Part shown: positions 57,023-64,000 of the stretch, piece after piece
How the letters are laid out: every line of letters begins with the position of its first letter
Position numbering within the stretch: the first letter of the stretch is position 1
NCBI GenBank assembly: GCA_951812805.1
Contig: CATOSZ010000016.1
Span: 62,001-126,000 of the forward strand
DNA length: 64,000 bases
Direction of reading: 5' to 3'
Source: an uncultured Alphaproteobacteria bacterium
Lineage (GTDB): Bacteria > Pseudomonadota > Alphaproteobacteria > GCA-2731375
Translations under genes and position numbers: made by a program
The notes under the pieces: model-generated
What the model saw: the letters and a program-made list of their open reading frames with translations, nothing else
The model's database searches: none
What the model was told of the DNA's origin: nothing

Positions 57023-58192
57023 CTAGGCCGCATCCTCGCCCCGGCCGGCCTCGGCCCGGACTTCCGCCTCGTGCTCGCCCAGCCTCGGCGGTGCCTGGCG
57101 AACGGCGAAGGGTGCCGCCGACATGTCGATCGGCGAACCGACGAGCCGTACCGGACCGCCGGCGCTCGGCGCCAATTCGACGATCATCCGGTTGACCGCC
57201 GTCTGCGGATCGGCGAGCGCCTCCTCCAGACTGCGCACCGGCGCACAGAGGATGTCGACGCCCTCGAGCCGTTCGACGAAATGCGCCGTACTGTCGGCGG
57301 CGAAGCGCTCGCGGAAGATCCCTTGCAGCTCGCCTCGCCGCTCCTTCTGACGGTCGAGATCGGCGTACTCGGACCGGGCCGAGAGGTCCTCGATCTCCAG
57401 CGCCCGGCAGATGTCCTGCAAGGGATTGAGCTTGAAGGCACCGACCATGACGACGGCACCGTCCGTCGTCTCGAACACGCCTGAGAGCGGCATCGCCGCC
57501 CAGTTCAGTTCCGCCCCCCGCATCATTCTGACGGCGGCCTCCTGCATCTGCATCGCCAGCATGGAATTGAACAGAGAGACCGCGATCCGTTGGCCCTCGC
57601 CCGTCTTGTCGCGCTGCAGCAGGGCCAGCAGGATGCCCTGCACCATGTGCATGCCCGCCGCATAGTCGGCGATGGCGATCGGATAGGTCGACAGCGGCAG
57701 CGAGGGGTCGGCGCGACGCAGGATCGCCCCGCTCATCGCCTGGGCCAGCACGTCCTGGCCGCCCTTGTGGCGGTAGGGGCCCTCGAGCCCGAAACCTGTG
57801 CCGACGGCATAGATGATCGCGGGGTTCAGACGATGGAGATCCTCCCAGCCGAAACCCATCCGTTCCATCACGCCCGGGCGGAAGTTGTTGACGACGACGT
57901 CCGCCCCCTCGATCAGGCGCAGCACCAGGGCGCGATCCTCCTCCGCCTTCAGGTCCAGCGCCACGCTTCGCTTGTTGCGGTTGAGGCTGGAAAAGACCGG
58001 ATTGTTGAAGCCATCCGGGTCCTCGCCCAGGCTCCAGCGCGAGAGGTCGCCGGTGCCCTGTTTCTCGATCTTGATCACGTCGGCGCCGTAGTCACCCAGC
58101 ATCTGGGTACAACAGGGGCCCATCATGACCTGGGAAAAATCGACGACGCGGATGCCGGCGAGCGGCAGGGTCTCGTTCGGCGCTTGGGTCAT
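57023..58192 (-). CDS. family III CoA-transferase (CaiB/BaiF)
   Basis: A 389-residue CoA-transferase with IRVVDFSQVMMGPCCTQMLGDYG at the start (cited by VVDFSQVMMGPCCTQM), DVIKIEKQGTGDLSRW, the catalytic-aspartate region AIADYAAGMHMVQG (about 165-178) and typical C-terminal segments. It probably activates the operon's substrate acid to a CoA thioester. It shares TGATG with the FAD oxidoreductase stop. Confidence 0.9.
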   Translation of the reverse strand: MTQAPNETLPLAGIRVVDFSQVMMGPCCTQMLGDYGADVIKIEKQGTGDLSRWSLGEDPDGFNNPVFSSLNRNKRSVALDLKAEEDRALVLRLIEGADVVVNNFRPGVMERMGFGWEDLHRLNPAIIYAVGTGFGLEGPYRHKGGQDVLAQAMSGAILRRADPSLPLSTYPIAIADYAAGMHMVQGILLALLQRDKTGEGQRIAVSLFNSMLAMQMQEAAVRMMRGAELNWAAMPLSGVFETTDGAVVMVGAFKLNPLQDICRALEIEDLSARSEYADLDRQKERRGELQGIFRERFAADSTAHFVERLEGVDILCAPVRSLEEALADPQTAVNRMIVELAPSAGGPVRLVGSPIDMSAAPFAVRQAPPRLGEHEAEVRAEAGRGEDAA

Positions 58193-59553
58193 CAGGCGGC
58201 CTCCGTGATCGTGGCGTTCTCCGCCGGCACGTCGCCCGGATCGGCACCTTGCGCGCGCATGCGTTTCTGGATATCGGCGGGCGAGACGTCGCGCACCGTG
58301 ATATCGGCTTCCAGCGCCAGCGCCGCGGCGATGCCCGTGGCCTCGCCCATCGCCATGCAGGGCGGAATTTCACGGCTCAGCTTCTGCGCCTGCGAGGTGG
58401 CCGAATAGTGGCGGCCGGCGACCAGCATCTGGTCGACATGTTTGGGCAGCAGGGCCCGGTAGGGCGTGTAATAGTCGCGACCCCGGCAGACGGTGTCTGC
58501 GAAATGGACCCGGTCCATGACATCGGATTTGGTGACGACATACTCGCCTTCCAGGAGGCGCGCCTGGCGTACGCCGGTTTGCGGCGCGAAGTCGAGGATA
58601 TGGGCGTTCTCGAAGCCCGGCATCTTCGCCCGGGCGAATTCGAGCAGCTCCTGGATGCGGCGGCGGCCCTCGAACTCGGCCGCGGTCAGGTCCGCGACCT
58701 TGGTGCCGTCGAAGCCGGTCATATGGGGACAGTTGCACCAGACCACGCCCGGCAACGGCGTCTTCAGCCACCAGTAGTTCCAGCTGCCGCCGATGATTCG
58801 CTTGGCCTGGCGGTCGATCGCGTCGAACTCGTCGGGCGCCTCGAACTGGAAACGTTCCGCCGCTGCCGTGTCCACGCCGCCCATGCGGCTGACCGTGGTG
58901 ACAATGAAGGCGCCGTCGGCATGTGCTGCGCCCGCATCCGCGGCGACATCGAGATCACCCGAGGCATCGATGACGACGTCGCCCAGGATCGCCTGCGGGC
59001 CTTCCTTGCTCTGCACCACGACGCCGACGGCCCGGCCGTTGCGCATCAGGGTCGAGCGGAACCAACTGTGCAGGCGCAGGTTGACGCCGGCCCCGCCGAC
59101 CATGTCCATGGCCGCCTGCTTGTAGCCGTCGGGGTCGAAGGCGGCGGCAAAGATGATCGGGTGCGGCGTTACCGGAATGTGGAAATCGAAGGTGCCCCAG
59201 CGCGACCACTTGCGCCACATCTCCCAGCTCTCGCGGACGTCGGGGTGGCGGTCGGCGTCGGGGGGAAAGACGCAGAGGCCACGCGCCGCCATGCGATCGA
59301 TGATCTCCATGCAGAGGCCGCGAACGGAAATCTCAGTGCCGTTGTGCATATCGTCCAGCAGCAACACCATGCCGCCCGAGGCCAGCCCCCCCAAATAGGG
59401 ATAGCGTTCGATCAGCGTCGTCGAGGCGCCGTTGCGCGCGGCCGAAACGGCGGCCGCGATACCGGCCGGACCACCGCCGACGACGACCACGTCGGACTTC
59501 GCGACCACCGGCGCCTCGGCGCCCGGTAGGCTCACGGAATTGGGCGTCGACAT
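58192..59553 (-). CDS. FAD-dependent oxidoreductase (FAD_oxidored/fumarate-reductase-like)
   Basis: A 453-residue flavoprotein. The FAD fold is DVVVVGGGPAGIAAAVSAA near residue 21, followed by ERYPYLGGLASGGMVLLLDD, which is characteristic of the PF12831-type FAD-dependent oxidoreductases. The C-terminal FAD contact is LVAGRHYSATSQAQKLSREI followed by CMAMGEATGIAAALA. The substrate is unknown. Ferredoxin, CoA-transferase and hydratase genes in the operon make an oxidation or reduction of an organic acid or its CoA ester likely. Confidence 0.85.
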   Translation of the reverse strand: MSTPNSVSLPGAEAPVVAKSDVVVVGGGPAGIAAAVSAARNGASTTLIERYPYLGGLASGGMVLLLDDMHNGTEISVRGLCMEIIDRMAARGLCVFPPDADRHPDVRESWEMWRKWSRWGTFDFHIPVTPHPIIFAAAFDPDGYKQAAMDMVGGAGVNLRLHSWFRSTLMRNGRAVGVVVQSKEGPQAILGDVVIDASGDLDVAADAGAAHADGAFIVTTVSRMGGVDTAAAERFQFEAPDEFDAIDRQAKRIIGGSWNYWWLKTPLPGVVWCNCPHMTGFDGTKVADLTAAEFEGRRRIQELLEFARAKMPGFENAHILDFAPQTGVRQARLLEGEYVVTKSDVMDRVHFADTVCRGRDYYTPYRALLPKHVDQMLVAGRHYSATSQAQKLSREIPPCMAMGEATGIAAALALEADITVRDVSPADIQKRMRAQGADPGDVPAENATITEAA

Positions 59554-59575
59554 GGCGCTTCTCCTTCGCGTGCCA

Positions 59576-60403
59576 TCAATGAACGTCCTGTGTCTTCCAC
59601 GTCAGCACGCGCTTTTCGACCAGGCTGGTAAGGCTGAAGAAAGCGACGGCAAGGCCGGCGCCCAGCACCACCGTGGCGTAGAGCAACGGCGAGCGGAAGT
59701 TGTAGGTGGCCTCGATGATCAACGAGCCGAGACCGTAGTTGGAGCCGATCCATTCACCGACGATGGCGCCGATGACGCAGGTCGTCGACGCGATCTTCAG
59801 GGCTGCGAAGAGGAAGGGCAGCGAGCTTTGCAGGCGGACCTTGAAGAGGACTTCCCTGGGGCTTGCCGACAGCACGCGCATCAGCTCCAGCATCTCGGGG
59901 CTCACCGCCTTCAGGCCGCGGACCATGTTCACGAGCGTCGGAAAGAAACAGATCAGCGCCGCGATGACGATCTTCGGCGCATAGCCGTTGCCGAGGATCA
60001 GCACCAGGATAGGCGCCACGGCGATGATCGGGATCGTGTTGATAAAGACGGCGATCGGATAGAAGGCGCGTTCCGCCAGGCGGCTGTGGACGAACCAGAT
60101 GGCGAGCACGACGGCGACGGTATTGCCAACCAGGAAGCCGGCGGCGGCCTCCAGCAGGGTCGGCCAGAAGTTGATCCACAGGACATCGCCCTGTTCGAGG
60201 AAGACCTGGGCGACCTGGATCGGGCTGGGCGCGATGTAGGTCGGAATGGAGAAGCCGACGACGATCGCCTGCCACAACAGAATAATGCCGACCGCCACGG
60301 CGATCGCCGGGCCCTTGTCGCGCCAGAAGTGGCGCCGCCGCGGTTGCGCCTGAATGGTCGCCTGGGCGGTGGCGGGTCGGCCGTCGGCTTCGATGTCGGC
60401 CAT
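59576..60403 (-). CDS. ABC transporter permease (SsuC/TauC/ThiX type)
   Basis: A 275-residue inner-membrane protein with about six helices. The conserved cytoplasmic loop for ATPase contact is LMRVLSASPREVLFKVRLQSSLPFLFAAL (cited by SASPREVLFKVRLQSSLPFL). It is typical of permeases for sulfonates, nitrate, taurine or pyrimidine-like solutes. Start ATG at 60403 shares TGATG with the ATPase gene stop. Confidence 0.9.
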   Translation of the reverse strand: MADIEADGRPATAQATIQAQPRRRHFWRDKGPAIAVAVGIILLWQAIVVGFSIPTYIAPSPIQVAQVFLEQGDVLWINFWPTLLEAAAGFLVGNTVAVVLAIWFVHSRLAERAFYPIAVFINTIPIIAVAPILVLILGNGYAPKIVIAALICFFPTLVNMVRGLKAVSPEMLELMRVLSASPREVLFKVRLQSSLPFLFAALKIASTTCVIGAIVGEWIGSNYGLGSLIIEATYNFRSPLLYATVVLGAGLAVAFFSLTSLVEKRVLTWKTQDVH

Positions 60404-61173
60404 CAGGCAGCCTCCAGCAGCCCGCGCAAGTGCGCGGTGATGCGGATGAACTCGACCGTCTCGCGCATCGCTAGGCGCCGCTCGGCCGTCAGATCCACCT
60501 TCGCGTACTCGCGCACCCGGCCGGGATGGGCGGACAACACCAGGACCCGCTGGCCGAGGAAAGCCGCCTCCGGCACGGAATGGGTCACGAACATGATGGT
60601 CGTCCCGGTCTCGGCCCAGATCCTGAGCAGTTCCTCGTTCAACCGATCGCGGTTGATCTCGTCGAGCGCGCCGAAGGGCTCGTCCATCAGCAATACGCGG
60701 GGCCGGGTGACCAGCGCGCGGGCGATCGAGACGCGCTGGCGCATGCCGCCCGAAAGCTCGTGCGGCAGCGCCCGCTCGCGCCCCGCGAGGCCGACCAACG
60801 CCAGCAGATCCTCGGGCGATGCGTGCTGGTCGACGACGCCCGCCTTGCCACCGACCTCCAGCGGCAGGCGGACGTTGTCGATGGCGCTGCGCCAGGGCAA
60901 CAGGGAGGCATCTTGAAAGACGAAGGCGAAATCACGCGCGAGACGGGCCGCTTCCGGTGTGCGGCCGAAGACGGAAATCGCGCCCTCGGAGATCTCGACC
61001 AGGTCGGCGATGGCGCGCAGCAACGTCGACTTGCCGCAGCCCGACGGCCCCAGCATGGTGATGAAACCACCCTCGGGCACGTCGAAGCCGACGCCTTCCA
61101 GCGCGGTCACCGCTCCGGCCTCGCTGGCGAAGCGGACCGCGAGGTTCTTTACGGATATCGCCGCCTCGGCCAT
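60403..61173 (-). CDS. ABC transporter ATPase (SsuB/TauB type)
   Basis: A 256-residue ATPase. Walker A is LGPSGCGKSTLLRAIA (about 42-57), the Q-loop is FAFVFQDASLLPW, the signature is HELSGGMRQRVSIARAL and Walker B is RVLLMDEPFGALDEI; the switch histidine is in VTHSVPEAAFL. It energises uptake through the adjacent permease. It lies 21 bases after the binding-protein gene. Confidence 0.95.
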   Translation of the reverse strand: MAEAAISVKNLAVRFASEAGAVTALEGVGFDVPEGGFITMLGPSGCGKSTLLRAIADLVEISEGAISVFGRTPEAARLARDFAFVFQDASLLPWRSAIDNVRLPLEVGGKAGVVDQHASPEDLLALVGLAGRERALPHELSGGMRQRVSIARALVTRPRVLLMDEPFGALDEINRDRLNEELLRIWAETGTTIMFVTHSVPEAAFLGQRVLVLSAHPGRVREYAKVDLTAERRLAMRETVEFIRITAHLRGLLEAA

Positions 61174-61194
61174 CGCTATCGTTCCCGGCTCTCT

Positions 61195-62241
61195 CTAGCC
61201 GATCTGCTTGCGCAAGCTCTCCGTCGCCGCCAATACGTCCTCGGTCATCACGTCGCCGACGGACGGCGTGGCGCCCTTGAACTGCTTCAGCGACGCGTAG
61301 GTGTCGATCTGAGCCTGCCAGTTGGCCGCATTCATCGCCGCCCAGCCGTCTTTCGCCGTGGTCGCGTTGAAGGCAAAACCCAGCACCGGCTTCACCGCCT
61401 CGAGCTCGCTCTCACGCTTCAGGTTGCGATATTCGGAGACCAGATGGTCGACCGCCCTCTCCGGGTTCTTGCGCGCGAAGCCCCAGCCGCGGGCCGAACC
61501 GGTGAGGAAGCGCTGCAGCACGTCCTTGTGTTTCGCCAGCATGTCGTCGGTCGTGTAGTAGACGTTGGCATAGAGCTGGATACCGCCGTCCCACAGCATC
61601 AGGTCGACCCGGTCCTTGCCGAGGATCTTCAACGCGTTGGTATTAGTCATCCAACCGGTGACCGCAGCCGCCTGACCGGTCATCAACTGGTTCATATCGC
61701 TGCCCATCTTGACGATATTCACATCGCCCTCGGCAATGCCGTTCTTGGCCAACAGCGCCTTCAGCAAGATCACCGCCGTCGGCTGGGTGGCGATGGTCTT
61801 GCCGACCATGTCCTTGGGTGCGCGGATCGGGTCGTTGGCGAGCGAGAAGTAAGTGAAGGGGTGCTTCTGATAGCCCGCCGCGAAGGCCTTGACCGGAATC
61901 CCGGCGGCGCGCGCCAGCATCAACGAGGGGCTGGACGAGAGCTGGCCGGCGCTCGCCCGTCCGGCGGCGACGGAAGCGACACCGTCGACCCCCGGCCCAC
62001 CCGGCGTGACCTCGAGCTCGATGCCTTCGTCCTTGTAGAAGCCCTCACGCTTGGCGACGACCTCGCCGAGGATGCCGTTGCTCGCCAGCCAGCCGAGCTG
62101 CATGGCGACCTTGGCTTTGCCGGCGGCCAGCGCCTCGACGCCGATGAATGTGGTCGCCGCCGCCGTGGCGGCGAAGGCGGTTCCGCGCTTCAGCAGGTCG
62201 CGGCGGTCGAGAGATGCGGTCGAGAAATCCAGGTCCGTCAT
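61195..62241 (-). CDS. TAT-exported ABC substrate-binding protein (NMT1/THI5-like)
   Basis: A 348-residue periplasmic protein. The twin-arginine signal is SLDRRDLLKRGTAFAATAAA (about 10-29). The mature part opens KVAMQLGWLASNGILGEVVA and has GFYKDEGIELEVTPGGPGVD, the pattern of NMT1-type binding proteins for sulfonates, nitrate or pyrimidine precursors. The choice of ligand is open. The ATG at 62241 is chosen; the longer frame has no signal-like sequence. It is the first gene of the nine-gene operon and divergent from the selenoprotein gene. Confidence 0.85.
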   Translation of the reverse strand: MTDLDFSTASLDRRDLLKRGTAFAATAAATTFIGVEALAAGKAKVAMQLGWLASNGILGEVVAKREGFYKDEGIELEVTPGGPGVDGVASVAAGRASAGQLSSSPSLMLARAAGIPVKAFAAGYQKHPFTYFSLANDPIRAPKDMVGKTIATQPTAVILLKALLAKNGIAEGDVNIVKMGSDMNQLMTGQAAAVTGWMTNTNALKILGKDRVDLMLWDGGIQLYANVYYTTDDMLAKHKDVLQRFLTGSARGWGFARKNPERAVDHLVSEYRNLKRESELEAVKPVLGFAFNATTAKDGWAAMNAANWQAQIDTYASLKQFKGATPSVGDVMTEDVLAATESLRKQIG

Positions 62242-62337
62242 GGGTATCGCCTCCCCAGCGATGCGGTCTTCGATCAAGTTGCGCGGGGATTGTGATGAGC
62301 CCAAGCGTTCGAAGGAAGAGGTATATTTTTTCTCCCC

Positions 62338-62356
62338 CGTTGCTTTTTTTGCAACG
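62338..62356. promoter_or_regulatory. candidate operator between the ABC operon and the selenoprotein gene
   Basis: CGTTGC-TTTTTTT-GCAACG is a perfect 6-base inverted repeat around seven T residues. It sits in the 199-base divergent region, in its most AT-rich stretch. A dimeric regulator bound here could control both directions; the operon's own LysR protein is a candidate. Confidence 0.45.
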
Positions 62357-62440
62357 CGCCACGGTGGGCTTCCTCCAGACATCGTCTTGACCATGGCTCA
62401 GGACTAGGTCATGGCTTGGTCGTCGAACGAGGAGGAAATC

Positions 62441-64000
62441 ATGGCGAATTCGACGCATTCCGAAGTGTTTGCCACGCTCTGGCCCGGCGGGCCCTATGCG
62501 GTCGAGATCGTACCGCCGGCCGCCCGGCCGGACAGTCTGGCCGGCAAGACGATCGGCTTCCTCTGGGACGACATGTTCCGCGGCGAGGAGATCTTTCCCG
62601 TCATCGAGGCGGAAATCCGCGCCCGCCACCCCAATACCCGTTTCGTCGGTTGGGAGGCGTTCGGCTCGATCTTCGGCGGGGACGAGCATCGGGTGCTGGC
62701 GGAACTGCCGGCGCGGCTGGCCGCCGAGGGGGTCGATGCCGTCGTCTGCGGGGTCGGCTGTTGAGGCGCGTGCACGCCCGCCGTGATGCGGGCGAGCGCG
62801 GTGGTCGAAAAAGCGGGCGTCCCGACGGCCTCGCTGGTCTGTGACGGCTTCCTCGGCCAGGGCGCGGTGACGGCCGGCGGGCTCGGCATTCCGGCCCTGC
62901 CGTTGGCCCGGCTGGTCGGCCATGTCGACGGCCAGGGGGACGCGGAGCTGGCGGCGAACGTCCGCGACGTGACCGCCGAGGCGGTGATCCATCACCTGAC
63001 CCGCGCGCCCCGGGCCGAGACGGACAGCCACGATTTCGGCACCGACGAGATCGTCGCACACGGCACTCTCGACGAGGTCAATGCGATCTTCGAGGCGCGG
63101 GGCTGGAGCGACGGCCTGCCGATCACCCCGCCGACGCCGGAGAAGGTCGCGGCCTTCCTGGCCGAAGCCGCCGATCCCGCGGACCGGGTCATCGGCACCC
63201 TGCAACCGGCCGGGCGGGCGGCAACAGTGCGCAACGTCGCGGTGAACGGCGTCATGGCCGGCTGCCGCCCCGACTATATGCCGGTGTTGATTGCCATCGC
63301 CGAGGTGCTGGCCGATCCCGCCTACGGGGTCGAGCACAGCGGCGATACCACGGGCGGCGACGCGCAGATCGTGCTCTCGGGCCCGGTCATCGAACGCCTC
63401 GGCTTCAACGTCGAAAACGGGGCGATGCGGGAAGGCACGCGCGCCAACACCAGCGTCGGGCGTTTTCTGCGCCTCTTCCTGCGCAACGTCGCGGGCTGCC
63501 TGCCGGGCGCCGGCGACAAGAGCACCTTCGGCAATCCCACCCGGGTCGTGCTGGCCGAACACGAGGCGGAGCTGACGGCGCTTGGCTGGCTGCTGTTCGC
63601 CGAGGACCGGGGTTTTGCCGCCGGCACCGACCTCGTCACCATCGCCCGCTTCACCAGCGGCGGGGTCGTCGGCTCGATCTACGGCGCGGACCCCGACGTC
63701 ATCGCCGCCTATCTCGCCGACGGCCTGGTGCGCCACACGAGCTGGGAGGCGGTCTTCATCGTCGGCTTCGCGCCCGGCACCTACCGTCCGCTGTTGGCGA
63801 TCAGCCCGATGGTCGCCAAGACGCTGGCCCGGGCCGGCTGGTCGAAGGACGACCTGCGCCGCGCCCTCTTCCGCCATGCCCGCCTGCCGGCGGCGAAACT
63901 GGAAACCTATTTCGGCCCCTGGACCAACCTGGTGCCCGGCCGGCCGAAGCTGGCGGACCTGGTGGCGGCCGGCACCGCGGATCCCGTCTTCGCCGAGAGC
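62441..64000 (+). CDS. UGSC-family selenoprotein with in-frame UGA (Sec108), 3' partial
   Basis: ATG 62441 follows GAGGAGGAAATC. The frame runs 107 codons (GFLWDDMFRGEEIFPVIEAE, then VDAVVCGVGC) to a TGA at 62762-62764. It then continues in the same frame, with no other stop, to the window end: GACTPAVMRASAVVEKAGVP and on. Codons 108-111 thus read U-G-A-C, close to the U-G-S-C motif for which the UGSC (seleno)protein family is named; homologues carry Sec or another residue there. A SECIS-like hairpin follows. The second half (GWSDGLPITPPTPEKVAAFL, NVAVNGVMAGCRPDYMPV) is a domain seen with UGSC proteins, function unknown. Conventional annotation would end this at codon 107. Confidence 0.8.
62769..62800 (+). 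promoter_or_regulatory. SECIS-like RNA hairpin for selenocysteine insertion
   Basis: CGTGC (62769-62773) pairs with GCGCG (62796-62800), and CGCCCGC (62775-62781) pairs with GCGGGCG (62788-62794), with one A-A mismatch between them. The 6-base loop is CGUGAU, with a GU as in bacterial SECIS loops. The upper stem begins 11 bases and the loop 18 bases after the UGA, within the range for bacterial elements. It lies inside the coding region, as in bacteria it must. Confidence 0.65.

Follow-up and report, generated by a model that had tools for sequence, protein, structure and literature searches.

UGSC-containing selenoproteins were reported in 2008 from ocean metagenomes (Zhang and Gladyshev; PMC2398784). 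The GOS data held 255 Sec and 21 Cys forms, a thioredoxin fold was suggested for the family, and a fusion called UGSC/Unknown_1 was described, in which the partner domain of UGSC is unnamed and carries a conserved Cys (Figure S1A; PMC2398784). A 2026 review places UGSC among the selenoproteins of largely uncharacterised function, and gives as ranges for bacterial SECIS elements (bSECIS) a loop of 3-9 nt, an upper stem of 4-16 bp, a G within the first two loop bases, a spacing of 16-37 and an MFE <= -7.5 (PMC13188914). Here we analyse a member of this family encoded at the end of a 64,000-nucleotide stretch of contig CATOSZ010000016.1 from an uncultured alphaproteobacterium, hereafter the window.

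The gene lies on the + strand and occupies positions 62441..64000, continuing beyond the window end. It starts with an ATG at 62441, 5 nt behind an AGGAGG Shine-Dalgarno sequence (62430..62435, + strand), and forms a single open frame up to a TGA at the window-equivalent positions 64154-64156 (3154-3156 of L019), with a UGA at 62762-62764 inside. The read-through protein would be 571 aa long and carry Sec at residue 108, in a GC-U-GAC motif. Residues ~14-182 match the UGSC family PF24696 (2e-28, 100.1 bits against a Pfam cut-off of 25), and the score for the NCBIfam UGSC equivalog NF041046 stays below its cut-off (43.1 bits against 125). The C-terminal part, from about residue 208, is fused to this N-terminal UGSC domain and received no Pfam or NCBIfam name in profile scans. 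A search of PDB sequences with the protein returned chance matches only, scans of viral contigs found no relatives, and a promoter/terminator scan of the gap upstream of the gene came back empty. On the - strand and divergent from the gene, positions 57023-62394 encode an NMT1/THI5-type binding protein, an ABC ATPase and permease, an FAD oxidoreductase and a class III CoA-transferase. The surroundings of orthologues include a glycine-betaine-type (OpuAC) transporter that precedes the gene in L180, a PhyH gene just upstream in L051, and a TauD dioxygenase gene in the same position in L052 and L053.

Standard ORF calling cuts the gene in two at the UGA, and just past it opens another ORF, which starts with GTG. 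This second ORF favours the view that the UGA is a true stop, a sequencing error or a pseudogene break, and that any hairpin behind it arose by chance from GC-rich codons. The first-pass annotation had drawn a two-part stem there, of 5 bp and 7 bp around an A-A mismatch and ending in the loop CGUGAU; counted from the UGA, the upper stem opens with the 11th base and the loop with the 18th. RNA folding of 62762-62800 (-22.6 kcal/mol) agrees with this drawing base for base, including both distances. The lower stem pairs CGUGC (62769..62773) with GCGCG (62796..62800), the mismatch joins 62774 and 62795, and the upper stem pairs CGCCCGC (62775..62781) with GCGGGCG (62788..62794) around the 6-nt loop (62782..62787), all on the + strand. 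All published bSECIS ranges accommodate this hairpin, with its loop of 6 nt, upper stem of 7 bp, spacing of 17 and energy of -22.6 kcal/mol.

The same annotation had cautioned that GC-rich codons could form such hairpins by chance, and rightly so. The window has a GC content of 69%, and 13% of its 1249 other TGA trinucleotides agree with loose bSECIS rules; upon dinucleotide shuffling the hairpin reaches a modest z of -2.0, and 7/200 shuffled sequences are equally stable. Equal fold stability is attained by only 0.4% of the 1249 other TGAs. None of them passes when the loop must be 5-6 nt long and contain GU, the spacing lie within 16-19 and the stem have >=5 bp, a stricter rule that was chosen with the target already known. 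Taken by itself, the hairpin is weak-to-moderate evidence for a SECIS, and since it goes barely beyond chance the case rests on relatives. An Rfam search at the hairpin gave three matches, the best being a sub-threshold plant miRNA, and nothing meaningful.

Fusion genes with the UGA are present in 14/14 other same-family genomes searched and in additional genomes from the class, and a contig search added three more loci from named alphaproteobacterial assemblies. HMM-guided extraction yielded 115 distinct UGA sites (29 fusion-type and 86 from other UGSC genes) and 4 Cys sites. As grounds for giving up the SECIS reading, the first-pass annotation had named the case that homologues with a UGA lack the stem or the GU of the loop. 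Among the fusion-type genes we found the opposite, as all 29, which share a T-P-A-V peptide, have the UGA and a hairpin with a CGUGNU loop starting 17 nt past it, and the variants CGTGTT, CGTGAT, CGTGCT and CGTGGT cover all 27 distinct fusion sequences. All 29 pass the bSECIS criteria, against 38% of shuffles in which synonymous codons are redrawn from their own pool, as do 94% of the 86 non-fusion UGSC genes with UGA, against 24% of their shuffles. In three divergent fusion relatives (L040-L042) the top stem has 4 bp only. Of the structure drawn originally, the upper stem and loop are thus conserved, whereas the lower 5-bp stem is kept only in part among relatives, and the constrained functional unit would therefore most likely consist of the upper stem plus loop. 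A UGSC fusion gene with a TGA and a SECIS-like hairpin also occurs at ~897-2600 of L192, the IncP conjugative plasmid p2-T1 of Acidovorax sp. T1; the sole ORF listed there is a short one upstream, so that the fusion gene was probably missed by annotation.

When the 29 fusion genes are aligned by codon, 70 columns have a conserved amino acid with 4- or 6-fold degeneracy. The codon is invariant in five of these columns, and among the five are the four upper-stem and loop codons CCC (+5), GCC (+6), GTG (+7) and CGG (+9), i.e. CCC-GCC-GTG-x-CGG. Placed at random among 70, five invariant columns would include these four with a chance of about 5 per million (66 / C(70,5)). In the rest of these genes CCC makes up 31% of the Pro codons and CGG 36% of the Arg codons, CCG and CGC being commoner. 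Within the fusion group the core upper-stem pairs hardly vary, the sixth pair changing from G-C to A-U in two sequences, and the group therefore shows codon constraint but little covariation. Of 84 distinct non-fusion UGSC sequences, 66 have C-G as closing pair and 16 have G-C, a compensatory swap that accompanies an amino-acid change from Cys-x-Leu/Met/Thr to Trp-x-Phe/Ile. The RNA signal thus appears to fix codons strongly, and goes with the amino-acid pairs that follow Sec (Cys..Leu versus Trp..Phe).

On Neorhizobium plasmids, three genes for a Cys form of the fusion share the Pro-Ala-Val peptide; their Pro codon is CCG, CCT or CCA and their Val codon GTC, and a comparable hairpin is absent (-4 to -5 kcal/mol). 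Of the four Cys homologues that the class search gave, two do satisfy the loose rules, but with other spacings or loops. In the non-UGA homologues examined, Cys replaces Sec at the same position. A chance hairpin behind a genuine stop or a break in the gene is hard to reconcile with these data: the UGA stands at the same codon in the 29 fusion genes and in ~103/107 UGSC genes of the class, synonymous invariance falls exactly on the stem-loop, Cys takes the place of the UGA in the homologues just mentioned, and the genome encodes Sec machinery. We regard that explanation as very improbable and favour a bacterial SECIS, a reading of the first-pass annotation that is borne out by the codon invariance, the loss of the hairpin in Cys fusions and the Sec machinery of the genome.

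That machinery consists of a tRNA-Sec (70 bits, anticodon tca), a selD 1.4 kb from it, and a selA that adjoins selB. All 8 PF24696 genes of the genome carry one TGA each, which suggests that this family of selenium enzymes is heavily used there. Across 385 genomes of the class, selA is present in 34/35 genomes with TGA-UGSC against 22/350 others (Fisher p ~1e-32, relatedness uncorrected); the lone TGA-UGSC genome without selA is 77% complete, and two of the three genomes with only Cys forms of UGSC are without selA. These data also bear on a second explanation, by which the UGA would be recoded by a near-cognate tRNA or by plain read-through instead of SelB, the stem-loop acting as a generic stimulator. 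Stem-loops 3' of stops can indeed raise read-through, and Sec insertion here is deduced from sequence comparison. However, a full Sel set encoded in the genome, the company of selA and TGA-UGSC across the class, and Cys at the UGA position in homologues all argue against it, and we give it equally little credence.

Although the hairpin proves little alone, the comparison with relatives is decisive, and we accept the SECIS reading. The comparison shows a gene that continues past a conserved UGA, stem-loop codons held constant, a compensatory swap elsewhere among UGSC genes, Cys fusions that have lost the hairpin, and a genome equipped with the machinery. The hairpin is almost certainly a bacterial SECIS in the coding sequence of a UGSC selenoprotein, which would direct SelB-mediated insertion of Sec at residue 108 and translation to the real stop, and the locus makes a clean comparative case for a hairpin spotted by hand as a real SECIS. 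From these alignments and gene contents we infer both the binding of SelB to the hairpin and the actual insertion of Sec. In the proposed sequence of events, SelB carrying Sec-tRNA would bind the upper stem-loop while the UGA moves into the A site of the ribosome, Sec would be inserted within the U-G-A-C motif, and the ribosome would go on to the stop at the end of the frame.

A model of the N-terminal domain, built from 4 sequences only (pLDDT 81, pTM 0.81), shows a parallel alpha/beta arrangement in which five strands alternate with helices; Sec sits where strand 100-106 has ended and the next helix begins. The nearest solved chains are SteB, PurE, B12-binding and receiver-type folds (Z ~9-10). 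Such an alpha/beta arrangement is common and says nothing on function. Thioredoxin-fold proteins were not recognised among the matches listed in the fold comparisons, which does not thereby exclude that fold. The full-length model is poor outside the N-domain, with pLDDT mostly 20-50 beyond residue 190, and we therefore make no claim on the C-terminal fold.

Standalone copies of the C-terminal domain adjoin most standalone UGSC genes of the same genome, so that the window gene resembles such a pair of neighbours joined into one. These neighbouring genes lie at C3:1422648/1423690, C5:101828/102853, C3:608579/607869, C8:22362 and 21309/23308, and C3:2023199/2024231. Cys275 of the domain is kept in 20/21 copies. 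In L184 (8381-9817) and L185 (6384-7838), C-terminal-domain proteins start with KRDCPTC, a stretch that looks thioredoxin- or glutaredoxin-like and has no Pfam match. Four clusters of a paralogous group (L175 10930-13053, L177 10572-12683, L178 10719-12842 and L179 10916-13087) contain a fusion gene followed by a second C-terminal-domain gene and then by a thioredoxin-reductase-like flavoprotein with CxxC; of these flavoproteins, two were scored against TIGR01292 and both lie below its true TrxR cut-off. On a haloarchaeal plasmid, a Cys-form UGSC gene is followed first by the C-terminal domain and then by an FAD oxidoreductase.

A Cys-bearing partner domain and flavoprotein neighbours make a redox or reductive role of the protein plausible. 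The Sec/Cys pair may form a redox or nucleophilic centre partnered by Cys275 and, in the paralogous operons, by the thioredoxin-reductase-like flavoprotein. A profile-profile alignment over 47 columns, covering the UxxC motif with the helix behind it, links this region to GRDB-like proteins with 88% probability. More speculatively, and in our opinion rather doubtfully, the UGSC domain might be a remote relative of GrdB/PrdB, which are catalytic selenoprotein subunits; together with the Cys275 domain (fused or beside it) and fed by the flavoprotein, it would give these alphaproteobacteria a selenium-dependent reductase that attacks a C-N or C-S bond in imported amine- or betaine-like substrates. 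Separately, the same genome contains four GRDB-like (PF07355) stretches without an in-frame stop, at C8:328150, C3:1748973, C3:1462852 and C2:138247.

Compared with GrdB/PrdB (PF07355), the window protein aligns in its UxxC region with the GRDB-like profile and has weak NCBIfam matches to PrdB and GrdH there, PF07355 not being listed for it in a Pfam scan at E up to 1. With the known UGSC selenoproteins it shares the Pfam family PF24696 and the UxxC arrangement, its motif being UGAC instead of UGSC. Like the UGSC/Unknown_1 fusion, it combines a UGSC domain with an unnamed domain bearing a conserved Cys (here Cys275), and Unknown_1 is likely the same domain. Its hairpin resembles bacterial SECIS elements such as that of E. 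coli fdhF in being a stable stem within the coding sequence right after the UGA, with a short GU loop at a spacing of 17 nt. The upper-stem distance of the fdhF element is 11 nt, as in the window hairpin, and that element has a bulged U; the window hairpin differs by a 6-nt CGUGNU loop and an uninterrupted 7-bp upper stem without bulged U. Non-fusion UGSC hairpins have instead a 5-nt loop, mostly AGUUU. Since both the selenoprotein family and the fusion have been known since 2008, this is a well-supported new UGSC gene and no new mechanism: the SECIS finding is correct and well supported, and the mechanism is ordinary in kind.
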